Below, piece after piece: positions 11,801-52,200 of a stretch of 64,000 bases of DNA. The DNA lies in contig OX387197.1 in assembly GCA_947561715.1 (NCBI GenBank), forward strand, positions 10,227,001 to 10,291,000. The letters are read 5' to 3'. A program made the position numbers and the translations under genes. How positions within the stretch are numbered: position 1 is the stretch's first letter; each line of letters starts with the position of its first letter. Origin of the DNA: Ascidia mentula (Eukaryota; Chordata; Ascidiacea; Phlebobranchia; Ascidiidae). The notes under the pieces are model-generated. The model was not told where the DNA came from and did no database searches. It saw only the letters and a program-made list of their open reading frames with translations.

Positions 11801-14800
11801 CTTTAAACAGATTTAATGTTTTTGTTGCTGCCAGGCATATTGTAACTTAATAATCTGTTCTTCTGGCATATATAAAAACCCTGAGGAAGCCTTGTTGTAT
11901 AACAGGCGAAACGTCGGAATAAAGTTACGTTTTTATATATATGCCTGAAGAACAGATTATTAAGTTTAAACAGATTGTTAACTTTTATATACAAAAATAT
12001 TCTTTTATTTACGATTTTTAAACAATTTAACGATTTAATCCACATAATTTCCACACACCTGCAGCGGTCGATCTTTTCCTGCATCTTTTGCTCGGCGGAG
12101 GTTTTGTCTTCCTGGAGCCGGGCGACAAGCTCCTCCATCTGTTTCCGGGATCGTGATGCAAAATCCTGGCTCGACTTTATCTCCTCCTCCCGCGTCCTCT
12201 GCGCCGCAACTTCCGCCTCCAGTCTTGTGTCACAAAACGCATGAATTATTACGTCACAATAAAAGCATTTTTCCGAGATGGAATTATACTCGATAATGTT
12301 CTTTAGTTGTATGATACACATAAACATAAGTGATGACAGCAATATGAGATGGCGGAAGACTATTAATGGATTTTCATTGTTTTGTTCGTGTGAATGACTG
12401 AAGTGGAGCAAGGTGTATTGACTAAGTGCGCACCTAGAGATTTTGCTTGTTAAAAACCGAAGGTATATTTGCAGCATCGGGTTTGTCGAGATTCAGGTGT
12501 TTCAGAGCAAAATTATACTGGCATTTGATTGGGGTGGTATTAAATCGCGTCAGTATACGAGTTTTGTTTTGCTTTTTTAGTTGAAACAAAGAAATGCATG
12601 ATAGGGATATCAGATTTACATTGCAAGCGAAATGAAGCCTAAACATTTAAAGGGAAAATACTTTTCCCAAAAACGATATTAATTTCTGCACAAAACAAAT
12701 ATTTTTTGCGTAAATAATGCAGCAAAATATTCACCTGGTGTTCGTGGTTTCGGCGGCCTTGAGTTGATCTTCAAGTCGCTGTATCGTGTCTTTATCGTGA
12801 GCACTGATCGTTTCGACCGATTGAAGTCGAGTGTTGGCGTTGGTACCAGTTTCACGAGCTTTCACCAACTCGGATCGCGCGTGTTCGGCAGCTCGCGTCT
12901 CCTCCTGAAGTCGCGCGTCGAGGCTCGAGCATCTTTCCTGTTCCCGTTACAAAACTTACAGTAAGTAGGGTTCACAAGTGCCCACTTAACAATGGCAATA
13001 TTGGTCATAAACTGTATATAAAACGCCACCGATGCATCAAGAGCAAAAACAAACAAAATATGTACGGAATCACTTCCAAATAATCTCAGTCAAGAAAATA
13101 TTTTTTCAAGATTTGCAAACTCCTTCTCTGACGTCGATTTGTGTTTTATTAAAGTCCGATTCTCAACTAGGGGTGTTCCCCTTAAGGGATGAAAGATATA
13201 TTTCTATGATTGCAGGCCGAATGCAAAATCACTAGGTTTGGCTATATAAATACTTCATAATCATAACATAGTGTTAGAACTTGAATTTCGAAAGTTAAAA
13301 TTAGTCGGCCTTCTTAAGAAAAAAATTATCTTGGGAATCGTTTAACAGAATAAAATATTAGAATGGTGATTTACAGGAAATGACAAAGAAAAAAGGTTAA
13401 GAATCGCTGGTTTACGCCTACATAAGTTGGGTGCGGAAAACCAAACAGTTCAAATAAATCCTTTCCAGACAAAACAGCATCAACAACAGTTCAAATATTC
13501 GTGTTACAATCACCTTTAGTTGTTGAACTTCAACCTCCATCTTGTTTTTATCATTTCGCATCTGAGTCATCGATGGTTCGGTGAAACTCATTCTCTTGTG
13601 GGTCTCGATCCGATCCTGCTGAGCCACTGCGAGCTCCTCTTCCTGGAAGATAAACTGTCTGTTAGGTATCAGCCCATTTGTGTTGACCCGAAGTTTACCA
13701 CAACACAACCTTTCAGGTTTACACAGTACATATATGTATAACGGAACGTACTGGCTGGAGTGTAATGGTTCGTGGAGGTTATGTTGCTCTAATAGAGTCT
13801 AATTACATTTTTTTAATGTTTGGAATCGATTCTCCATAACCCGATTGAACCCAGGTATATTACATAATAATATTCTAGGTACAATAAAAAGAGTTCTTCT
13901 AATCCAGGAAATTTCGTCAAGTAACGGTTTTAGTCACAAGTACGCATATCATGGGTTGTATGGTATGCGTACTTGCGCCTAGAATCAGGAATTCAGGACT
14001 GACCTTCTTCAGTTTCTCTTCGTTGATTCGGCTAATTTCATCACGCAAGTGCGACACCTGCTGGTCCAATTGAGCGTTTCGCTTCTCCAGTTCGATTCGT
14101 TCTTTATGTTGACCTGAATTTGGGAACCACGTCATACTCGCCACAATGCACATAGATCGTTAGTGAAATATTTCCTTATGTCATCAAAGCAACAACATGT
14201 ATTGTCGTTATTTACACGACATAAAGTCAACGTTGTATAGACTTTATACGATTTCGTGCAAAGCAAGCGGACCAAGAAGTGACAATATTGGTTAGTTGGC
14301 AACCAAGAACGACATTGATAATGACTGTTGCCAGACAGAGACAACCGCCTTATCTCAGGACGTATTGTCTTAACAGACGACTTTAAAGGTATTTTTCTGG
14401 TTATTTAGTGTGGTTGTTAGTCTTTAAACCAAGGCCCGTGTGAACTTGTATGCGTTTAGTTTCCGACAGCCAACATATATGTTAACCGTATACGGATAAT
14501 TTGTCACATCGAACCCTCATGCAACAACATTGTTACTTGTCTCGGCTTTCTGCAAAGGATTTTGTGCTGCCATGGTTGGCACGAGATGAGTCACGTGATC
14601 GGCTAGCAGCTTGTGCGCGTCTTTAAATAAAACGCCCAGAAACATGAAAAACCTCGTAAGCGAACCGCTGTGTGGTCCGAAATGAAAACCCATTACAAAT
14701 TTGTTCTCAACATTTTTCTGTACTTGGGAGTTCGTGGTTCTTGCCACGCATTGAGCTCTTATGCATATTTACCCGTCACTAATTCGGAAAGCTTGCCCTG

Positions 14801-17800: not shown

Positions 17801-20800
17801 GACATATCTACTACTGAAACAGGTCTAAAATGAGCCTTAAGGAAATAACTGTTACCAAAATCTTTCCGAACAAAACAAGTTACCCCTATATACACAATAT
17901 AAACACTTTAAAAAACCTCTTTGAGTCGATCCTCCGTGTGCTCGAGTTCACTCCTCATCTCTGTGAGAGCCGACTCCTGCCTCCTCCTCTCCGCAGCATC
18001 GATTTCTAATCTCTCCTCCAGTCGTTTGTGGCGATCTCGAGAAGTATCAGCTTCGAGCTGACTCGTCTCCAGTTGTTCTTTGGTTCGAATCAACTCAAAG
18101 CTGTGGGGACAGGTATTATCAAAATCAATGTTATGTCCGATGTATGGGTGACGATACATTTTTATGCGGATTTACGGCAGAGGCAAGCATTAAAGACCAA
18201 ATCACACTCACGAATCTACCAAACGTCATTTAAACATGAATAAACAAATTAAAAACTAAAAAAATTATACTGTTAATTCTAGTTAAAACATATATGCGCA
18301 AAAGCCGGTAAACTATCCATAGTGCGCTCCACGATGATTAGTCTCTGTTGTCTGGTACCCAGTTGGGTACCCAACGGATCGACGTTGACCAAAAGGTCAA
18401 ACCACAAAGTGGAAATATGCGTGCCTGCTAGCGTAAAAGCTAGCGCAGTGCCACAGTCAACAGCTGCACTGATGAGACCTTGCAGGTCGAAATAGTGTGT
18501 ACACCTGTCTGCAGCTCTCACTAATTAAACAACTAACATAAAAGAATTGAATACAATAAAAATCATATAGTTTTTCATCAACACCAGAATAGGGATGTCA
18601 TAATTTTTTACTGGAATTGGATAAATGCAAAACGTATCGACCGAGGTACGAAAAGATTGGTTTCTGTTCAGATTGAGAATCGGTAACGGAATTACAAACA
18701 TTCACAGCCTGCATCCTCAATCCCTACTCCACAATCTCTTACTTGATTTTCCTCATCCGTGAATCGAAGTCATCCTTCGTCTTCCCCCATTCTTCCTTCT
18801 CACGTTTCAAATCACGGATTTCTTCTCTTTGTTTCTCGTTTTCCCGTTTCGAATAATCGAGTCGTTCCAGAGCGTCGACGGCCCGGTGTTTCTCTCGGCT
18901 CGCCTCTCTTTCCAGCTCTCCGCGTTCGCCCGATCGCAGCAACGCTTCTGTAGACCCGGAAAAATTTCGTTTTGTCACAAAATACGTTTTCCCCACAAGA
19001 ATCGTATATTCAGTACGACCACACTACTAGATAATTCAAAAACTACAGCAAGAGTTTAATGCAAAACTAATTCTTACCAGATAATTGGGATGATCGGAGG
19101 GAAGCTGGCATTTCGGCGGGAAATTCGTCTTCAGTTTCCGTCTCTGTTCCTGTCAGATTGTCGATGTCGATGCCGTTAATTCCGTTCACTTTCTGGCTGG
19201 GGTAAGAAGGATCCCGCCGACTGTACATAGGCGGAAGGGCCACGTTGGACTGCACGAAAGCGTAGTGGGGTATGAGAAGACAGTCTATATCATGAGGTTT
19301 GTATGACTTCCTAGCCATCTTGTGCGAATGTATAGTACTGTACGGCGAGTTTAAAGTGGCGATATATCATACAACATTCTGTACAACAGAAAGAGGTAAC
19401 TGTGCGAAACCAGCGGTTCTTAATCATCAGAGACTATATTTGGAGTTAAAAAATTTGGTCATAATGCCTTTTCTTCGGTTTAAACCTTGCTATTAGACTT
19501 TCGATTGCATACAACTGACGTTCAAACATCGTTCTGCAGGTTTTATTACAAAATTAAACGTAAAAATTTTCCAAAATTATGGCGTCCATTAAATGTAACC
19601 ACCGCACGACTGTTGCAGGCAGATAACCTTTTATACTACTGCAAGTGCCCATCAGCACACTGCTAATAAAACTGCCTACTAAATTGTACAAACAGTTAGT
19701 ACGCCCATTTATAGCATACGTATAATGGTGAATATTCCTTAACAACGGTTTTAATATGAAGCGGCCGGCGTTGGTATCAACACCAGTCGACTCAAATTAC
19801 ATGAGCTGGTGATAACAAAACGTGCAACTTTCGCGCACTTCAAACACTGGCGTGTGCTTCACTGTGTAGATAACAAAGCTCTTCAACAAACTTGTCTCAT
19901 CTAGCACTTTTTTGAGCCCTGTAATAAAACGGCACCTGACCGACAGTTTGTAATTAGCGTACTTTCATCTAGTAGCGACGCAACTACTTCCATGCAAAAC
20001 GTTATGACGACGCACACAAACAGCATCAACTTTTTTAGAGTTGATTTCGCGAATTTCCCTCACAGAATTTTTAACATATACTTTATTTTATCACTACAAC
20101 AGCTGAAAGGCTACCTTTGCAGTATGATATGTGAAAGGGAAATAAAATTCGTAAAGCTTTTTTGAAAATCGGGGAAAAGAATTATTGCAAAAAACTGAGC
20201 TTGCGAGTTGACGCCCCAGCGAAGAACGCAACAGTGCAGCGCGACGGACTATCTTGTAAACTATGGTTTAATCCATTCCATCCAACATACAAAGTGTCCT
20301 TTTCAATGTATGCGACATGTGCTTACGAAAAGACAGAGTAGGTACGACCGAAGTGTGGTCAGTCTGCTTTACCCGTAAATGCTTTCTAATACAATACAAG
20401 TTTAACCCAGTACATCAGTAACACGCATTCCGCGGACTTATAGAGTGCGAACCAACCTGCTTCTGTCCGTACTTCTTCCTCCTGTTCGCAGTCTGGACGT
20501 TGCCCATATGTGGATCTTCTAATTCGGAAATGTCGCTTTCACTAGGGTTGCCCGCCCTTTACAAAAACAATACGTACAGTATACAGAAATTATTACAAAA
20601 ACACGATACAAGTAATAAGTTCGGCCTCGGCAACGAACTAAAATTTTAAAGTATTTGTTCCCTAATCAGACACCTTTGCTTAAACGAATTATGCTGGTAA
20701 ATACTGCACACAACAATGCTTCATTAAGCTGCCTTAAATTTTTTCACTTACTTCACAAACTGGACCTTGAAACTACGGCATGTGAGCGCGGGCTATCAAC

Positions 20801-31201: not shown

Positions 31202-34200
31202 TCATTGCGATGACGTTGAAGGACCCTGGGAGGGCTGTGCTGCTTCTCTGTTCAGGTCTTCGATTGAGTCTACAGTTGCTTTGCAGTAGAAACACTCTTT
31301 GATGCTCATTAGCTGCTGTTTGATGCAAGTTCTGCCAAGAGACAAAAGATAGGATTAGCTTTCACCAAACCTTTGGGTAATCATGTAAACAGTAAAACAT
31401 GATTGGTAAAAAGTGGCAAGTAACTGCCCGAAACCCAACAGAATATTTGGGGCGAAATAAGGATAAATATTATTAATATCACTGGTAGGACAATGTACAA
31501 AATATGTGTGACGCGAAACAAACGTCATAAAATGTCGGCGGACAAAGCATCCACGTTATCAGCTCACAGCAAACATACCTGCATGAAGTGTGCTGGCAGG
31601 GTTTAAACTCAACCTGAATCGGGTTGGCGTAACATATTGTACACAAATTGTCTTCATCCATCGGCTCCTGAAACAAATACAGTTGTTCAATATGTGTTGT
31701 AAAGGTCATGATGCTGCACAGTCCCTGGACGACCAACCTCTAAACTGTCAGTTGTCTGTTTGATTTCTCTGCGCACGAAGCGAATGGCGTCTCGCAAAAG
31801 GTCAATTTCGCAATCCATCACCTCCTCATCTGAAATTTCACGCAAGTTTGAAAAACAAAATTTGACAAGCAAATAAACGTGTTGACAATCCGTCGGGTCG
31901 GATGGAAACGGTGCTGGTCCTGAGCTGGCGTCAGAACGGGAATTTGTTGATTTGACAAATACACGGTAACCGTTTCAATTAATTTAGGCTTTTGAAGCTT
32001 ACTCGCATGGACTTTTAAACATTCTTTTATGCTAATCTAAAAGTTACAGTAGCGAGTTGAAGAACGTGTCGTGCTGAAGTACCAACTGTGCAAAATTCAC
32101 GTCAATATTGCTTTTTGCACTGAGACCGGTCAAGTTTACTCTACAACATCTATAAACAAATGTACTCTTTACAGGTACTTCTCTCTACGATAAGCAAAGT
32201 GGAACCAATAATATGAGTTGTGTATAAGCTGCAGACAGATGTGATTATTGTGACACGGGGCCTGACGGCACTATCGGTTGAGCTTTGCTTGGTCATAGTA
32301 TTTCCACCTTGTTTTCTCCGTAAGGTTGCACCTAGTTTGGTGCTTGGCCGTTTGGTCAGCAAAGTTGTTTGAAAGTCACACCAGCTGCACTGATAAGACC
32401 TTTTAGGTCGAAACAGTGGCCATCTGTCTGCAGCGCATACACTTCTCTGTACATTCGCTTACATTCTTGCAGTGTAACGAACTTCTTCTCTTTGGAGCGA
32501 GTATACGGCACGGTTATTCCTCGAGGAACAACCAGGGTATCATCAGTTTCTTCGTCGTCCTGCATGTTCAGGAGATACTCCATGGACTGGATGCTGAATC
32601 CAGGGTCCTTTAGGAGGGTGTTTAGGGCGCAATCGGACCTGGGGGAAGAGGGAAACATAAAAATAAACATTTGCTAACGTCTGTTTTATTGTTGAAAGAT
32701 TATTGGAGTTACTGTCGTGACCAACAAATGTGAAAAGAACACCAAAAAATTTAAAAAATAACGGGTGTAACGAACTACCTCCGGCAAAAGTAACAACTCG
32801 AATCTACCACTGCGCGGCCCCTATTATCACTTAGTAGTTGGTTGTGTGTGTGTTGTTGGAATAAAACTGACACACAAACAAACAACAGGAACCAACACAT
32901 TCCATGTATGTTCACTTATATCGAGTCAGCAATACAAAATGCACAGAACAAAATACTTTCCATAAATCAAACCCGTGCAAGTCATAAATAATTCCCATAA
33001 ACCGGAAATAATGTTTCAGTTTTTTTATGACGTCAAATGCGTGTATATTGCGACCTAAGTAGGTAAACCCTTCCATGAATAATGGAAATCCTTTTCTATA
33101 GGAACGCCTGAAACGTGATATACTCAAACGCTTATGTAGTGTGGTTTACAATGTTTTTGGGGCAGGATTAATCGAACTCCACACAAGCCTTTTTCTTGAG
33201 GCTTGTATTAAAACAAGTTTCTTGTCACGAGTATAATTGAGATTCGTGGTACTTGGCAGACGAGCCTATTTTGCGCAATACATCGGAGGTCGAATTACGC
33301 AGGTGTCGCGTTCAAAGGTCACAGCCAAGACACAAAACACCTTGCGGAGTTTCTCCTTGAACCGCGACCCGATTAAAGAGCAACAGCTCGAAGCACGTCA
33401 GCAACAACAAAACGAAAACGCATTTCTCCACGGCGCAAATAACCGCAGATCAAACTTTTCACGGCAGTACTGATGTGTGTTTGACAAGCAAAGGGTTGCT
33501 GATGTTGGCCTCAGGATTTCCGCGTTAATTGGCATTTGATTGACGTGGCTGGCAATGCCTGCCTGATTAGTAAGGCATTAAATTTGCATGTGGGTACCAA
33601 GGTTTTCGCAAGCGTCCGCGGTGCAAAACACAATGCAAGGGATGAAGCCATGAAAGGTTTGAGAGGCGTTTGGCGTCAGGATTATAGGAGACATGACAAC
33701 CGCTTGCTGCCGATATTGACAAAACTGATGTAGACTTAGATACGAAATCGATGAACTGCATTGTGATCTCTGGTGATCGTACAAGCACAGTTAAATTTTC
33801 TGAGAATGAAGATACTGGCCTATACTATTTTCAACATTGACATGTTTCATGCAAAAAAATAACGTCTCGGCTTACGCCAATAGTATTGTATATGTCTCCT
33901 CATTCTCAGAATTATGAGCAAACCCGTAAGTAGTGTTACACAGTTAAAAAGATTTTGATTTTACTTTAGTTTTAAAGATAACCAAATGAAATACAAAATA
34001 CTCGAAGGTAGCCACTTTTGTTTAACGTGTTTGGTATCTGGGGAGCAGTCAGTATATAGGATTGCAGTATCAGAGACGCGCAGAAGTCAACATAGCAGCC
34101 ACAAAGCCATTTTCAAATGTGCGGCGTTTTCGCGTCAGCGGTAACGCAAACCACATCCAATCTCTCAGTTCACAACTCGCACACAACAGGTTCGCCTTAG

Positions 34201-40200: not shown

Positions 40201-43200
40201 ACACGACTCACACTGGCCTGTAGTCAGGTATGCGCTGACTTTTCAACATAAAAATTAATTACTCTTGATGGGCAGTTTGTAAACGCAATCGGTTGTACCT
40301 AGCTTTTCACTGAGACGTAAGATGGAATGCACACATAAAACCACAACCTGACAAAAATCACAGACATGCGTATCTTTATACTCCCAACAGCACTTCGCTC
40401 TAAAGTTTCGGGCAATCTGTATTAGAAACAACGACTGCAATTGTCGAATGTGCATTTATTGATAGATGTCAGTTCTCTTGCATTGAATGGCAGAGCTAAT
40501 GTAGATGTATAAGCTTTGTTATAATCGAGTAAGCCATGAAAAAGCAGACGCCAAATCCAGTCATGCAGCAAATTGCACGGGCCGGTTGTCTCACGGCATT
40601 GAGATAAACGATTGAGTGCAGAATCCGACTAGCTGTAAACACCTGTAGACGTAGAGTGCACACAACTTAACGACGGATATAGTGGAAACATGTACTGTAT
40701 ATACTGCTTGGGAGATATTAACAGTGCCTCTAATTCTACAGAAATAAAACACAAATCTTGATGGAATATATGTTAGGGTAGTCTCTTCTTCAAATTTAAG
40801 GTTGAGGTGCTTTTGATATATTTCTATGCTTTGTCTTTCAAACATTTCCATGCAAGATTTTAAGGTTTTACCTTAAACAACCAGACTGCGGTGGAGTGGT
40901 CAGGGTTGGTGCCAACATACAAAAGAGAGAGAAGAACGAAAAGATAAATGTTTTCCATATCGTTTTGGTGACAACGACGCACCTGATGCAAAAAAACACC
41001 GTTTTTGAACTTCAATGCAAAAAGCCACAGCGCCTACCCTTTCAACGTTACTGTTGATCATCTGACAACGTTTTTGCACTTCTGGGTCACTTGAAAGCAG
41101 CTGCGCGTCTTCAGTAGAAATGTAGGTAACATTCATGTAGCGCTTAAACGAGGTAAACACCACGACCAACATCATTTTGACCAGCACTACAGTGCAGTAG
41201 AACGAAAAAGCTGCAAAAGTCTCATTTTCCAACGTATACGGACTGTCAGTCATTCTGAACGTTGTTGCAAAGATCTGTATCCGCTCCAGACAACTACAGA
41301 CACTACCGACATGCTTGGCTGCGATTGCAAATGGAAAAAGGGGGTCATGGTGAATGTGGCCCAGCATAACTGCACGAATGCCCGGGGCTTTGTGTCTTGC
41401 CTTACCTCATGTAAAGCAGAATCCGATCATGGGTCAAAGTATTTTTTTTCTCTACGCAACTTCCCACCATCACAAGTGTGAAGAGTCAACATCGTACAAA
41501 ATAAAACTGTTCCCTCACCCTGAATCGGCGGACTTGTGACCATATAGCACAAAATCAGAAGAAAAAAATTCATTCCTTTCACATTCATAAACCCTCTATG
41601 TGTTCACTGGGCACGAGTGCTCGTCAAACCTCTCTGTATCGCTCATCTTCAAGCTACACGAAGACATTATTTTTCATTCTCTGCACTGTGGTTAGAAACA
41701 CCACCATCATCATCTTGATCAATATTTTTTTCATTGCCCCAAGAAAAATAAACGCTGCAAAGTTTTCATTCCACAGAGTACGGACTTTCTGCCATGTTGA
41801 CTGGCTCTAACATTATCATACGCTTTGTGGAATATCAGGGTTAAAGTCGCGTGGTTGAATAATGGTGGAGTATTAACTTACACTTCAACAGCATGAAGTG
41901 TAATTTACTACGTCACGCCACAGCCGTGTTCTGTCTTGTTTTCGTGTGAATCAGACAACCTGAAATGTACCGTTAACCTAATTTTCAACACTGCACTGAA
42001 GAAATGTGGTGTGGTGCAGTAAAGTTGTACGCTTGTTGCTTTAACAATGAAAATGTTTAACTGCACGAAATCAAAACCTGACCAGCAACACTTCTTTGGC
42101 GTGACACAAATGAACTTCAGTTTCAATTTCAAATATTGAATAAATAAAAAATATTTGAAATTGACTTGCTGTAATATTTTGTTTCAAAAAATTAATTTCT
42201 ATGTTCATAATTTTCTGTCCAATTCCTCGATCTTGAACTTGTGTCAGTGGTATTAAGATAATGCCCAACCGAGGGCTAAATTCTGCTACAATCAAAGTTC
42301 CAACTGTATAGGCTGAATCTTCTTGTATAGGCTATGTTATTGTTCCCAATGTGCAATTTACCCTTCGCTAAAATAACATGTATAATTTTACAATACAGTG
42401 TTTACATCTAATGAAGCGATGCAAACTTGAGAAAAACTCGTGATTGAAATGAAATCAACATATCAGTCTTTTTCAATATACAAGAAAAGTAAAGTTTCAC
42501 AATACACAAACTCAATTTGCTTTTTTCTACTTACTCGTTCAACACCCAATTTCATTTGGATGTAAGTCGATCAGAAATAAATCTTTCTTCCAATTTAATG
42601 TAATTGTTTATGAACCTTCTCGTGCTTCCAATGGTCGACATAGCCGCAGTTTTAAACAACGAAATAGCACCGTGAAATACCAGCGCCAAAAACGATTTTT
42701 TTTTTCCAAACTGTAACGCTCCATTGCGATGCAAACGTCGAAAAAGTAATTCAAAGTGGCATTTGTGGCGATTTTGCATTTTCGAGCAAATGAATTGAAG
42801 GCTGACAAAAAAAATGATCTTTGGTCTGGATAGGTAACTTAAAAGAACGCTGGCCTGCAATGATTTTGCCCGAGCTCTTGGATAGAATATCCACTGGCAC
42901 AATTTGAAAACTAACGATACCTGACAGGAAAAATATAATATACCAGTAGGAATAAACCGGCAAAAGCCTACGACACCCGGTATTCCCAGGCGGTCACCCA
43001 TCCAAGTACTAACCGGGCCCGACGTTGCTTAACTTCCCAGATCGGACGAGATGGGGTGTTCTCAACGTGGTATGGTCGTAGGCGTTTGCTCGCTATTATA
43101 CACGCTTCTTATACTCATGATTGCGCAGGTGCAACAACAACAAACTTCGTAACCCCTTATGTTTAGTTATATATCCCCTTTGTGTACAGATTCTACACTT

Positions 43201-46200
43201 TATGAGTTTAGTTGCTTAATTATCCAATACTATATCAGTTAATCTTCTGTGCAAATTTCAAATTCAAAAAGCCTCAGTTGGTCACAACAGCAAAGCAAAA
43301 TATAAAGACCTCTATGTCCAACTACATGCAACTCACCACTCTTTTTTTTCCTGTTTCACCAATTTCAACATAATTCCAGCGATTGACGTCATCAGCGGGT
43401 AGTGTTGTACGCTGCTTAGACCTATTTATGAAACAAAAAAACGTTTAACAAATGTTTTGCATCCCTTTTACGACACAATGCAGTGTTTTCGTAAGTAAAC
43501 AACTCACCTGGCTGTTTTCCCGTTACAACATTGTCGAATAATCCACCTTTGGTCGTTACTCTGTTCAGAATTTGATTGATACACTGCAGCACAAAAGGAA
43601 AGTTAGTACATATGTAGTTATGTGGGCTTGTAAGATGGTTTCATGATACGGATAAAACACTTTTTAAATTGCATGATAAGGTAGAATTTGTTTTGTGGGC
43701 ATAGCATTTCTCTTGATGTTTTAATATCGGCGATTAAATGTCTCTAGCAAAGTGCAACGTTTTTCAACATGTACTGGGATTACCGAAATCGATGAAACGC
43801 TGTAAATTACTCAGCTAAACACCTGGACAGATTGGCCAACACTCAACCACAGTAAACAACAAGAAACCTGGTTTACTAGTTAATGTGAATTGATCAGACC
43901 ACAAAAAATATATCAAAGCTTTGCGCCTATCCCAATCATTACATGTACAGAGCACGGGCAACTTTGATTTGAAACTTACTTGGATGAGGCCGGTAATAAG
44001 GATTTCGGCATTGTCGTGATTGGGCCAATCCAGAAACACGTCGGGAGCTACCGACAAGGTCAACTCGAGAACTCGCAGTAGCGACACAGAGAGTTCGAAC
44101 AACATGTCCACTATACGAAGTTGCCGGAGGGCTTGCGCATCAAGCGAAGCAAGCAGACCTGTCGCTCCCTTCCAACCACGCACATTCTGCTGGTGAACCT
44201 GTTGAAATTGTATGAACCAGTAATTGTGAAAATGGTCGCTACTTCTGGTCACTTAAAGTATAAGTGGCCTGGTGTATTACTGGAGATGTTTGATACTGGG
44301 CTAAAGAAAAGCAACAAATTACACATTTCAATACCTTCGTCGCATTAGTTAGATTTATTATTTAAATACAAATATCCAGTACTTTAATGTTTAGTTTAGA
44401 GATCTGTCATTCTCTATAGGCCTACGCTTAGCAGTAGAGCAAAAAAATTAGAGCCCGATAAAAAAACAGACAAAAGCCTACGACACCCGGTATTCCCAGG
44501 CGGTCACCCATCCAAGTACTAACCGGGCCCGACGTTGCTTAACTTCCCAGATCGGACGAGATGGGGTGTTCTCAACGTGGTATGGTCGTAGGCGATTGCT
44601 CGTTATTATACACGCTTCTTATACACACGCTTATACGTTTGCCAGCTACGCTACTGTATCATGACATATCAAAGCGAAGGAACAAATTCAGGCCATTAGT
44701 TTCGTTTTGGTAAATTAAATGATTGTTGCAAGGAAATACTTTCCTTTTGTTCCTAGAAAACTAGATTTGAAAAATAAATGTTTAAGAAAAAGAACATAAC
44801 TTTGATGTTGTAAGGAAGTTCGCAAAAAAAAATAACATGTTGATTAAATCCAATAAACGCAAAACAAGAAGTTAAAATTGCGCAAATAACACAATGGAAA
44901 CACCACGGTATAATAGCTTGTATAAACTTTCACTGACTCTATTTCACACAACTGGTTTACTAGTCGTCAATTTACAATAAACAAACCTCTTGAAGTTGTC
45001 CGATGAATTCTGAGAAGCTCCAGTTAAGATGTTCCAAGATGCTGTGAACAAATTTACCAGCGAGGGTCGGCTCGCTCATGAGAAGTTCGCGAACGCATTC
45101 CAGTAGCTTGCTCGGAACGTACGGGTCTATATGGAAAATCAATTACCACTAAACAACCCGACAGAGCATTAAAGGCCTTTTCCCGTTAGTGAACAAAACC
45201 AGCAAATCTAAAATATTTGAAAAGTTTCTCACCGTGTTCTCGGTTGAGAAGTTTTTTCACTTTAGCGACATAAGGGGGGTGGTCGTACCTCATAGCGAAC
45301 CCGCTTCCCTGGACAGAAAGCAATGTTATTCATTCCATACTGATAATGATTGAAAGTAGTAACTATGTAGAAGCTTACCCTCCAAAGTGTGGCCAGTATT
45401 CTGTGACCGACGCTGGTCCACGGTTTGTCTTCGTCATAAGCGTACAACATGTTCCGCACGAAGGATCGAAGGCTGCACAAACGCAAGTTCATATTAATAA
45501 AACATATAAAATGCGGTTTTGGCCGTAAAGAGTTTTAGCAGCAATAGAATTCCACGCCTCCAAACTAATCCATACGTTCATTACAAACTATTTGTCATTT
45601 TCATTAATATTTATCACATTTGGACGACATCAAGTTTTAACTTAAATATGCTGACCACAGTCATCCAACGGCAATACTGAACAAATAATATGAATTATAT
45701 GAGATGCGGACATTAGTTAATTGGTTGTGGTGGTTGTTGACTTAGAACTTAGATAACTTTCTTACTCGTCAATTGGCATCGTTTCAACAGCTTTTAGTTG
45801 CAAGGGGTAAGTGATGAAGGTTGTGATCGTGTTCGCCAGCATCGTTTTCACATCTGTTGGTAACAACAAACTTTTAAAAGATTATGCTCCAAGATAATGT
45901 ACAACAAACATGCCTGGTTTATCGACCTGATAATCGGTTTTAGTAACACATGTCAAGACCAACATTTGAAACACAACTGCAATATAAGCGGTAGGTAATG
46001 CGCTTACCGTTGTTCACAACCCGCGAATCGCAGTGGAAACCGCTGAGAAATCTGATAAACGAACGAAGCGTGTCGTCGTGATCGGAAAGCTTCTCGAAAG
46101 GTTGGGAGGGTGCAAAATACTCCCGCAGACATTTGTACAACCTGAAGCAAAACGGTTTAATCACACTGCCCTTCAATGACAATCACAGGCGAAAACATGT

Positions 46201-49200
46201 TTAATTTGGAATGTAATTTGCGGGTTGGCAAAATTAAATTTAAGATCAAGCAAAAACAATGTATGTTATTAGTGGAGCCAACAATGATCAGTGAAATGAA
46301 AACATGACGTAATACCTGGTGCCGGCTGTCAAATAAAATTCCGGCATGAAAGTGAACAGAGGCCCTTTTTCAGACGCTTTGTGTGCAGTTCGTATACAAA
46401 GCTGCAGAAGCCACCATAAATTCCTCTGCGATTCCTTTAGTACAAAAAAATTAAACAAATCTTAGTTTTGAAACAGCGTGCAAAGTTGTTTCAAATGAAA
46501 TCAGACAAAAGCCTACGACACCCGGTATTCCCAGGCGGTCACCCATCCAAGTACTAACCGGGCCCGACGTTGCTTAACTTCCCAGATCGGACGAGATGGG
46601 GGTGTTCTCAACGTGGTATGGTCGTAGGCGATTGCTCGCTATTATACACGCTTCTTATACTCATGCTTTTACGCCTCTGCCCAGTAGCTAATTTCAGTAA
46701 TGTACGTAATTTTTTTGTGCGGTTCAAGGACTTGTGATACAAATATTTTCATTCTATGCAATTTTCTACTTCAGAAATGCGTTTGAAATGATTTCCTGCA
46801 GCCACAGTTGACAACAAAACCTATCAAATGGCACGAAAAGCCACCGGTATTGTCATCAACTACCACCGACTCAATTTACCTAGCGGTACAAAACCGTTTA
46901 ATGCCAATTTTAACGGTGAAAGTGAGAACGTTTACAAGCAGTATTCACTGACCGGGGCATAAACTGATGCCTTCAACCAGGCAATGGAACGGCAAAGTTC
47001 GGTCATGTGACGGAGAAGGACGCCGTGTGATTGGGTGAGACTCGATCTTACGTCAGAGAGCTGCAGGATACAAAATAAAATATTAGTTTTATATAGATAT
47101 CCCGTTCGAAATGGAAATGGAACATTACTTACCTCTGGACTTGAGCATTTCCTCAATTTGATTTCGATTTCGTTCAGGGCAGTGGCGTATTCCACTATCT
47201 TGGTGCGTGTAGTGTGGATCTAAATAGTAATATACAGTAATGATTCTGTTTGGTCAAATATTGCAATTAATAAGCACTTTTTCAACAACTGTCCATTGTA
47301 AGTCAGAAACGAAGAAAAACTAAACGTTTTTCATGAAAATTGTCGTATTTTCGCGTTTTGGTCTTGTTTGCATGCGTTTGTTTTCCAAAGACTTAACGGA
47401 TATAATTAGCAGGTTTTGCCTAAAACTGGCTAATGTAACCCAAATATTTTATTATGGAACCCTCGGGTTTCGCGGAACCGTCTTGCATCAGATAAATTAA
47501 ATTTGAGTGGGCTGATTAAAAATGAAATTTCTTCGTATGTAATGGAAAATGCTTGAGAATTGATTCTGGGAATCATTTCCCATTCTGTTGCAATTTGGCC
47601 CTGACGATTTCCACCTTATTATATATATAACAACTGTCCAAGAAACTTTCGTTTCAGGTTAAAATCTTTCAGTCTTCTTTAATTAGACATATATATTTCG
47701 CTCCGTTAAAAGCATCATCAGTGTCTATGAAAGCAAATTAAGAATTAGGTGTAAATAAATAAACAAACACTGATGATGCTTTTAACAAAGCGAAATATAT
47801 ATGTCTAATTAAAAAAGACTGAAAGATTTTAACCTGAAACGAAAGTTTCTTGGACAGTTGTAATGGAAAATCTAACGTTTCAAAATGTAAAAAGGTATTC
47901 CTCATCTCTGCTAATAACACGCTAAACTAGTAATTGTACCACAAAATATCTTATCGCAAGTCCGAAAAAAAGTAACTTTCATACCTTGTCCATATGAGGG
48001 TGCATGATGTTGGTGTAGAGCAGTAGGCAGCCGTCAGTGAGTTCAATGAGATGAGCTTTCGTGGGAAGTTTATCCATTTCCCCGTCCTCACTCGACGATC
48101 GCTTGCGGCTTACTGTGATGCTGCGATCCCGTCCCGTCATCTTGTTGCTCTGGTTAAGCAATGCCCGAGCGAGACGTAGCACAGGGTTGAACGTTTCCAA
48201 ATCAGCATCTGCGACAATTTTGAAAATAAACTAAGTGTTTCACGACCAGCTCGCCCAGCCCTTGGTTAAAAGCTCAGGTTTTTGTCAGGCAATAGAAATA
48301 AGTGAAAAATATGTTAGAAGGCAAACTAACGGGATTGTCGGTCACGTGATATTTCCAAACAGTATCTCAGCTGTGTAACGAAAGTGGTTGAGAATTACAG
48401 CGCAAGAGGGAACGTCCGAATGAATCGGATGATTTACAAGACCCCGACATAGAATATACTTGGCATGAGACGGTTTAAGTGAGAAACTGTTATGTTCATT
48501 AAGTTTATCAAGTAAAAAACAACATACACATACCCTACACTGTAATCTACTTCAAACGATCTCAATAGAATCGAAAAAAGAAGTTTCGGTTCAAACAGTT
48601 TGTGACTTTATACAAAATCAACACAAAACTATCAATAACATGCCATCAAATAATTTACCGTCGTCAGCTCTGGTGAGAGTAGAGAGAGAAGGACCGGCAG
48701 TCTCCTCCTCAAACAGCTGCAAGAGGGCGCTGTGCTCGTTCCATGTATTCTCGTCATTGTTTGGTCGTCTGCCACCCCGACCTCTCGCCACAGACACGCC
48801 CTCTTTTGCAAGTTCATCTGCAAACAAGTGGCAACGGTTATAATATACCACCATTTTTGAACTGTTTTTTTTTTGGTTTCAATGTCCTTAAATGCTGAAA
48901 CAACACCGCAAGGTAGCATAGTCAACCCTGCACCGATACTATGCAAAATGTCAAAATTGACTACAGGAATTAGCCTGTGCAGGTCAGTGACCGGCGGATC
49001 TGTCTTTACGAATCAATATAAACCCTGTACCAATATACACAAAAAAAAACAATTTGGGTCACTGCTTTTTGTAGTTGCCACTGAAGAAGCAAAAGTTACC
49101 TAAACAAATTAAGATTTCAATTGTTAAAAGCTTGATTTGTATTTGCACAAGAAATACTGACAGAAAGGACATGGCGAATTTACAACCCAGATTTAATTTC

Positions 49201-52200
49201 GGGGATACTGTGCAAAACACATTGACGCAACCAACAAATACGCATTGTAACCATAAACATATATGTGCTGTTAGATGTACTGGCGAATTCACATCGTATC
49301 TTACATTAACAACATCACGGCTGTATAGACGAGAGTTAATACCGAGATCAATTTATTCCCCGAGGAATTAAATCAAACCAGTAAACACGTTGTGATGCCA
49401 ACTACAGCAAACTCGCATTCAAGCCCTCATGGGTGCATGTGTGAATTGGAATGCGTTCATTTGCCAATAACGCTTCATACGAAGCTTGAATAATGTTTAA
49501 GGATGGTGAGAAGCATTTAATACCTTTGTGTTCATTGAGGAGGTGAGATTTGAGACCACCCACTCGCTGTAAATCGAAATAATCGATCGAATCCGTGTAG
49601 AAAGATTCCGTAGGGACGTAACCCTCTGATAAAATACAATAAAAAATTCTGTGAAACAAAACGGAGGAAGAACTTGGCGACGATCTGCAAAATCAGACAA
49701 AAGCCTACGACACCCGGTATTCCCAGGCGGTCACCCATCCAAGTACTAACCGGGCCCGACGTTGCTTAACTTCCCAGATCGGACGAGATGGGGTGTTCTC
49801 AACATGGTATGGTCGTAGGCATTTGCTCGCTATTACACACGCTTCTTATACTCATGACACCACAGTCGCACCTTCCCCAAACAACTGTTTGATTTTTTTC
49901 GCGGTGTTAACATTACGTTAGCCTCGTTACTTAGTACACTAAAGACCATTCTTACAACCACGATTTCATTTAGCTTTAAGCTTTGGACAATACAAAGGCA
50001 TTTTTGGTGTCGAAAATTAAACACTACTGAAGTATGGTAAGCGTGACTGGGACATGAAGTCGAAAGAGAGTAAGTTGCACAAACCTGACGCCTTCACGTA
50101 TCCGGGCTTTGTGGTGGCTGATTTGTCCCACAGTTCACGTATGACGTCGACAAGTCGTTGCATGAAGGAGTGGAGAACGATGGGAGGAGTTACAACCGTG
50201 TGTTCCGACTGTATCACGTATAATATACAGGTATTGCCAACAAGATTCGCCACTATAGTCTACTAAAAAACGCATTGTCGTAATTGTTCCGCAAAGGGAA
50301 ATAAACAGAGTTTACGTGGTTGTTTACTTACTGGGAAATTCAAATAAAGTTTGTGAGCAACAGAAGTATGGCTTGTGCAAGTTGCACTACAACTTCTCAT
50401 AGGAAACAATCAGCGGGCGCAAAAATTAACCCACAACCCGAATTTACATGTTACCAAATCAAGACATAACCGACATCACCGTTTAACAATCGCAAATACC
50501 TCCCATAACACCACACTTTGCTCCCATGGGGTGGGACCAAACCAATGAGCGTCAAAGGCCTACATACAACTTCACAACACAACATGCTATTTGTATCGCA
50601 CACACGCCCTTGTCGGTATTCAACGGTTTGATCTACATTCAATTTAGTAGGATATACGTCACACTTACCCTATGTACAGACACCACATTTTCGAGGTACT
50701 TTCGGAAATATTTGACGAAGGCCCCGCTCACCATTCCCTGTAAAAAAAAACACATTGTGAATATATACCAATTACCAGGGTATATTATGCCAACTTGGTT
50801 TGTGAAAGTAGTGAGAGTACATGCATCTGAGTAAACAACACAAATCATGCAGTTAAGTGACGCACGACCTGCCACGTGTTCGTGGGCCCGGTCATTTTGT
50901 TGTTCAATTATATTGCTAACAGTTGTAAACAACTGCATGGTTAGAACATTGAATAAACAAGAAAATGTCATTTACTTGTGTAACCATTTAACAGCGAACA
51001 CTATGATGTCATGTTTAAAATCAACCTAACAACTGCCACCTTAGCACTGACTGTCATGGTTTCGCGGTATGTTTTGGCCACAATCGCATCTTTTTCCGGT
51101 GGAGGTTAATTATGGTCATAGTTACAGGTTAATGGCGGTTAAATTCATCGCGGCTATACATACCAAAGCTTGGCCGTCCAAAACCATGAGCAGCATCAAT
51201 TCGCGCTGCAGTTTTTTGACATCTGTGCAAAAAAGGGAGATCGGTTAATGTTGTGGGCAGTGCGAATAAAGCTCCGCCCGCAGAAAGTCACGTGTGTCAT
51301 TCTGACCAATCAAAACATACACCGAAATACGCCGTTACGTAAACTGTTTGTTTACAAAACAGAAGTGATGGTCTTTACGACAGGATGTCATGTAATTTTT
51401 TATTAACAAAGGTTTACCAAATGTTTGTTATAACTTGTGGTTTAACACATCATGTTGCAACAGGACAAACGTTAAAGCAATTATATGGAGTATAGTATAG
51501 TATATACTGTATATTATATATCATGCACACAGAACAAAAACGTACCATTTTATTTAAGAGTGTTAATAGATCAATTTATTAACGACATACTTAGGTGGGC
51601 AACGTTTTTCAACTAAATAGAATGAGTCACTGATGGTGGTTTAACAAATACTGCTTGCTCCTATGTAGCAGATATATTATAGAAAAGAAATGACTTATTA
51701 TTGGGGTCACCTACCGTCCATTTTATCCTTCAACTTTTCATAACCGCGCTCATACGTGGCTTTCGGGTCGCAATCCTGGAAATACATAAAAATAAGTTCA
51801 ATCAACATGCTATTATCAACAGTAGAGAAGCGTTCAAACAGGGCAAGTCAGTTTAATGGAAACCAAATTAAACTCTTGGTACAAAGAACACACAACAACA
51901 AAAATTTTACTTGTAAAGTAGAGAGTGACATAGCAACATCAGCAACAATAAATTGTAAGCTACAAGAATACAAATCTATTTCGTGCATGGATACACAAAC
52001 TACTTGTCACGCAAAAGAAGTGTTTCTGGTTTGGTTGATTTTGTGAGGAAAAACATTTCATTGTCAATCAAAAATAAATGAGACTTTTCCCCGTGGCGTT
52101 TGGAGAGAGACAAAAAGCTAATTACAGCAAAAAAACTTCAAACGTCAACCTATATCAGTTAATTGTCACCGCACTTACCCTTCCCCATACCATGGGAATA

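Follow-up and report, generated by a model that had tools for sequence, protein, structure and literature searches.

Hammerhead retrozymes of the ascidian Ascidia mentula share their insertion anatomy with Penelope-like elements of the same genome

Metazoan non-long-terminal-repeat (non-LTR) retrozymes are described, in the portions of PMC7229834 consulted, as tandem repeats of about 300 bp with a type I hammerhead ribozyme at one end, a GC content below 50%, target repeats longer than 4 bp, and Penelope-like elements (PLEs) in the same genome. The enzyme that moves animal retrozymes figures only as a hypothesis in the accessible parts of PMC7229834, PMC7761336 and PMC11722881. PLEs themselves are characterized, in the consulted sections of PMC3846280 and PMC11167929, by head-to-head arms, a tail at one end, a target-site duplication (TSD) of about 12 bp, tandem units and a hammerhead near the 3' end. 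Among ascidians, nine type I hammerhead loci are mentioned for Didemnum vexillum in the part of the literature available to us. This study concerns a hammerhead motif at positions 18462-18516 (plus strand) of a 64,000-nucleotide stretch of Ascidia mentula DNA (assembly GCA_947561715.1, contig OX387197.1, chromosome 1, positions 10,227,001 to 10,291,000), hereafter referred to as the window, together with the dispersed retrozyme family to which it belongs. The mitochondrial COX1 of the genome has AGA/AGG codons where conserved glycines are expected, a tunicate trait. Insertions of the retrozyme family carry the anatomy of PLE insertions and, by analogy with the PLEs of this genome, it is very probable that PLE machinery primes reverse transcription of the retrozyme RNA at the nicks in both target strands, the insertions being the two-armed product.

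The A. mentula family consists of tandem units spanning 285-304 bp, within the range of roughly 170-400 bp typical of metazoan retrozymes, with a type I hammerhead at one end and a GC content of 0.479 / 0.474; target duplications, when present, exceed 4 bp, PLEs occur in the same genome, and the window copy is a truncated single unit. On these characters, the element is placed among the metazoan retrozymes as a new member. It differs from the retrozymes in the consulted portions of PMC7229834 in that its insertions are head-to-head and two-armed, with one short and one tail end. Head-to-head arms, a tail at one end, a TSD of about 12 bp, tandem units and a hammerhead near the 3' end are all shared with the PLEs of PMC3846280 and PMC11167929, as far as the accessible text goes. 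No description of a PLE insertion signature on retrozymes was found in the literature; supplements and subscription papers were outside the scope, so earlier notice is possible.

The orientation of neighbouring copies carries the first part of the evidence. Among 97 retrozyme places, merged by hand from two similarity-search lists, neighbours within 1.5 kb of each other were arranged minus-plus 20 times and plus-minus never (plus-plus 3, minus-minus 2), that is, head-to-head with the ribozymes pointing outward; at least three of the 20 minus-plus pairs look like segmental duplicates, leaving about 17 independent ones. The first 100 matches to an exact pattern, comprising the core and one helix I strand, yielded 7 minus-plus, 0 plus-minus, 5 plus-plus and 2 minus-minus neighbours. 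An exact direct repeat of at least 9 bp adjoins the element at 16 of 52 loci, a set from which same-place repeats were removed and in which segmental duplicates remain, compared with 1.8% of 1,021 swapped-flank controls.

End mapping of these 52 loci scored a repeat in 20, comprising 12 two-armed and 8 one-armed insertions. Once the duplicates L058 and L035 were set aside, all 10 remaining two-armed loci showed one short end, 9-13 nt beyond the cleavage site (21 in L047), and one tail end, 33-44 nt beyond it (29 in L016). All seven minus-plus pairs among the first 100 exact matches possessed a repeat with at most one mismatch, a short end of 9-18 nt and a tail end of 37-48 nt. Seven further places were read: L089-L092 conform to the one-short/one-tail rule, as does L095, on a by-eye reading of its short partial arm; L093 has a single arm, which carries a tail end, and L094 has no repeat. 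Together with two insertions in the window, 24 of 24 counted two-armed insertions (10 + 7 + 5 + 2) thus combine a direct target repeat with one short and one tail end, and the tail ends exceed the short ends by 20-36 nt (two of the 24 paired by eye, one borderline). If each insertion were a fair coin and all were independent, both being assumptions, the chance of this outcome would be 0.5^24.

Arms may hold more than one unit. At L082, seven units in the order -++++++ lie within one exact 12-bp target repeat. Five of the units are complete: three identical copies, a fourth with 3 mismatches and a fifth that is longer by a base. Either several laps round one RNA circle or reading along one multimer would give such an array. 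The units of L042 are less alike, at 96-99% identity. Inverted arms flanked by a direct repeat of roughly constant size could also describe a DNA transposon or miniature inverted-repeat transposable element (MITE) with terminal inverted repeats, in which the hammerhead is a chance passenger. We regard this as extremely unlikely: the arms are unequal and variable in length, they may be multi-unit or absent, and the two ends are unlike each other.

The PLEs of the same genome display a corresponding arrangement. Among 150 scored matches to the PLE GIY-YIG domain, neighbours within 6 kb were minus-plus in 22 cases and plus-minus in none (minus-minus 4, plus-plus 8), and clusters such as ---+++ occur. 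Thirteen PLE places were read, six at first, then an array on C67, then six more. A target repeat is present in 11 of the 13, each of them with a short end opposite an extended one. The extension measures about 33-40 nt at nine of these places, 59 nt at L100 and 70 nt at L102/L103. No repeat of at least 8 bp was seen at L063 or L062. The C67 array (L073-L077, C67:6132528-6148416) holds five PLE units, --+++, within a single 12-bp target repeat, and its plus-plus units are identical across 2,027-3,065 bp where compared; the array is evidently a recent single insertion. Five PLE target sites have C before and G after the repeat in 5/5 cases, with repeats that are 82% AT. In 21 retrozyme target sites, the three bases before the repeat are A (16/21), A (15/21) and C (11/21) and the three after it G (7/21), T (14/21) and T (12/21), with repeats that are 77% AT; p values for target sites are uncorrected. 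Within the window, positions 11877-11917 (41 bp) match the 3' region of the PLE at L066 at 80% and may be a PLE remnant.

Long interspersed nuclear elements (LINEs) are also present, as 27 matches to the endonuclease domain PF14529 attest, and served as a control for this arrangement. Twin priming by LINEs produces inverted inserts, so a LINE might mobilise the unit and thereby generate its head-to-head form. No two of the 27 matches lie within 6 kb of each other, as judged by eye, and each retrozyme arm has a fixed start next to the hammerhead and may contain several units, neither of which is expected from twin priming. Mobilisation by a LINE is accordingly given very little weight.

In the PLE-driven pathway that we favour, full 285-304 bp units would be transcribed as multimers and cut to monomers by their own hammerheads, and the monomers would be circularised by a host ligase, a step inferred from the published retrozymes covered in the accessible portion of PMC7229834. 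A PLE protein carrying reverse transcriptase and GIY-YIG endonuclease domains would nick the two strands of an AT-rich target at positions about 12 bp from each other. Each nicked end would then prime reverse transcription at an internal site of the retrozyme RNA shortly beyond the hammerhead, about 11 nt past the cleavage site for one end and about 40 nt past it for the other. Because both starts are past the cleavage site and the arms continue across the hammerhead, the template would have to be uncut or re-joined there. The two complementary DNA (cDNA) arms would run back through the joined hammerhead, sometimes across several units, and meet head-to-head. The outcome, suggested by the anatomy shared with the PLEs of this genome, would be an insert of two inverted arms, one with the short end and the other with the tail, flanked by a duplicated target.

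Published accounts of PLE integration differ in how the arms arise. The consulted part of PMC11167929 describes a PLE protein that acts on both strands, cutting and extending them from internal starts, with the tail lying between the two start sites; it reports no start-site difference between strands and states that hammerhead cleavage is not required in vitro. The idea of one start per strand goes beyond what that part of PMC11167929 contains. The portion of PMC3846280 available describes pseudo-long terminal repeats (pLTRs) placed head-to-head, one of which may carry a 31-bp tail, together with TSDs. Its favoured source for the inverted arms is self-priming on an antisense template; this alternative mechanism is compatible with the present data.

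Several observations weigh against the PLE interpretation. A target repeat was not scored at 32 of the 52 mapped loci, and two-armed loci lacking a convincing repeat were left unclassified for end type. Retrozyme insertions show the head-to-head arms, one-end tail and TSD of PLE-type integration, with L017 as the contrary case: its ends of 28/37 in a cruder mapping break the one-short/one-tail rule. This locus was not counted, its repeat being of low complexity (score 10) and the locus lying in a nested cluster; L038, with ends of 37/8 in the same mapping, conforms and was likewise left uncounted. Among the counted loci, L047 (short end 21) and L016 (tail end 29) are borderline, and the repeat of L054 is an AT run. 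A regularly longer tail arm was sought and rejected (10 versus 14, p 0.54). In six further PLE sites, C and G flank the repeat on both sides in 1/6 at the top-scoring boundary; C appears in three more if the boundary is shifted by one base. Finally, the retrozyme unit is absent from the 20 PLE loci read, out of 150 GIY-YIG matches (BLAST, E 1e-3), and no convincing tail similarity between the retrozyme and these 20 loci was detected, either by BLAST or by local scores: L061 scored 28, slightly above the 26 that the best of its 30 shuffles reached, and the other 19 did not exceed theirs. Local scores of the unit reached 42 in L069 and 37 in L062, values that carry no shuffle control.

The absence from these loci bears equally on the possibility that the unit is the pLTR of a PLE family, left behind in solo copies or multimers once the open reading frame (ORF) was lost, rather than an independent retrozyme. 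This origin would account for the insertion anatomy shared with PLEs, and a loose pattern (CTGANGA...GAAA) recovers hammerhead-like motifs of several sequence classes past the GIY-YIG domain in 17 of the 20 PLE loci (L061-L080). The A. mentula unit differs from PLEs in being shorter than 310 bp. No ORF-bearing copy containing it occurs in the 20 loci read, and its units abut directly in tandem; we consider a pLTR origin improbable.

Independent retrozymes copied by PLE machinery remain our preferred reading, and a stronger version of it can be stated, in which animal retrozymes would be obligate PLE parasites: one PLE protein dimer would cut AT-rich sites about 12 bp apart and copy a single ribozyme RNA circle simultaneously from the two nicked strands, each strand having its own start site and the two sites lying about 30 nt from each other. 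The one-short/one-tail rule would then be the footprint of this process in PLEs and retrozymes alike. We place the chances of this version at even, because the target motif is weaker in the six further PLE sites and the two cited papers differ on mechanism. The common orientation, target repeat and one-tail rule of PLEs and retrozymes within one genome render the PLE hypothesis specific and testable; the one-short/one-tail rule provides a simple diagnostic for other genomes, and it narrows the PLE mechanism to one in which each insertion has a pair of unequal starts.

The genome-wide search for tandem copies that the first-pass annotation of the window had proposed was positive. Beyond the tandem units described above, the exact pattern matches the genome 1,583 times (816 forward, 767 reverse), against 0 matches for the reversed control. 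The 110 bases around the window hammerhead have at least 46 matches in the genome and a 1.3-kb query at least 60; only top-ranked candidates were scored in the similarity searches, and these counts are lower bounds. At least two families can be distinguished by eye: family A, represented by the motif at 18462-18516, and family B, with stem III CAGTGGCCATCTG and a copy at 32189-32440. Segments of eight family A loci (L044 left arm, L047, L050, L051, L054 left arm, L056, L057 and L059) share 98-100% identity, and an exact 58-mer is present 84 times; amplification was therefore recent. Three further loci, L017:1194 (minus strand), L020:952 and L035:945, are family B relatives with the cleavage triplet GTA instead of GTC, or decayed forms.

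Within the window, re-reading of the exact sequence confirmed a genuine hammerhead motif at 18462-18516, with predicted cleavage after C18509. As first annotated, it is a complete type I motif: the invariant core (CTGATGA), three helices, an open helix I of 7 bp (AGCTGCA/TGCAGCT), a helix II of 5 bp (GACCT/AGGTC) with the loop TGC, followed by GAAA, and an NUH cleavage triplet, here GTC. Helix III is weak, consisting of A15.1-U16.1, U-G, A-U and G-C closed by a 9-nt loop. A pattern scan of both strands of the window returned this site alone, and 300 dinucleotide shuffles gave 0 matches at stems of 7/5/3 and 1 at the looser 5/4/2. The base 3' of GAAA is U in the window copy and C in 43 of 50 aligned family rows, an alignment pre-filtered for near-intact cores in which one row is false. 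Forced into the hammerhead fold, the motif has a free energy of -13.1 kcal/mol against a minimum of -15.2, and with its flanks the predicted minimum-energy structure differs from the hammerhead.

The covariance-model check that had been suggested for the motif did not support it, and these scores speak against the assignment. No Rfam hammerhead model reached its gathering score in scans of the window, whether filtered at gathering or at E-value thresholds: the motif obtained 19.9 bits with RAGATH-1 (RF03152; cut-off 56.3) and 18.9 with Hammerhead_3 (cut-off 48.5), and young family copies obtained 29.1 and 28.2 bits. RAGATH-1 is the top Rfam hammerhead model by bits for both, and the A. mentula hammerheads fall far short of membership. 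Taken literally, the lack of a hit above threshold is what the first-pass annotation had named as refuting the motif; these sub-threshold scores are not decisive, because the best copies of the same family miss the cut-offs too. A genome search with Hammerhead_1 (RF00163) gave no match, and its positive control was likewise silent in every genome searched. Distal helix I pairing, as needed for a loop II contact, was no better than with shuffled partners (p 0.24, 12 distinct rows) and gives no support for covariation in this part of the motif.

Compared with the rest of family A, the motif is the predicted hammerhead that ends a truncated and aged retrozyme insertion within a host intron. This insertion (18291-18520, plus strand) is 5'-truncated and about 15% diverged from the L042 units, to which it is 84-85% identical. 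Its right arm (18317-18520, plus strand) bears the short end, which lies 11 nt beyond the cleavage site; its left arm is a 16-nt inverted remnant of the tail end (18291-18306, minus strand). The decayed target repeat, paired by eye, lies at 18279-18290 and 18521-18532, with 9/12 bases matching. With one hammerhead and a 16-nt inverted remnant, the copy is a dead end and, by itself, an ordinary decayed intronic insertion. The second, two-armed insertion in the window belongs to family B (32189-32440, plus strand); its hammerhead at 32383-32434 has a core altered to CTGATAA (G8 to A), and its target repeats at 32177-32188 and 32441-32452, also paired by eye, match at 11/12 bases.

The host intron is a GT-AG intron of 642 bp at 18101-18742 on the minus strand, and its flanking exons join in frame, as assessed by eye. 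Placement of the hammerhead inside this intron stands, with the qualification that it is not native there and represents one copy of a dispersed element; the antisense orientation also holds, the motif being on the plus strand and the host gene and intron on the minus strand. The description of the host as ANKRD26-like is plausible: of 8 exon ORFs, 2 have Pfam ankyrin-repeat matches, and there are long exons that look charged and coiled-coil-like by eye, with no ANKRD26-specific domain in 18 host-gene exon ORFs. Exaptation has been proposed for some amniote intronic hammerheads, and the window core has stayed intact in a copy that is about 15% diverged, as a role in regulating the host gene might predict. 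Such a role is nevertheless highly unlikely for a motif that is one among very many copies, antisense to the gene and flanked by a decayed target repeat. Because the copy has a single hammerhead and no tandem partner, it could alone cut an antisense transcript at most once.

Two other features were observed. A long palindromic hairpin at L054:3038-3119, with sub-cut-off microRNA model matches on both strands, is perhaps another inverted element. In the window, four 5S rRNA genes are irregularly spaced across 42965-49820 on the minus strand.
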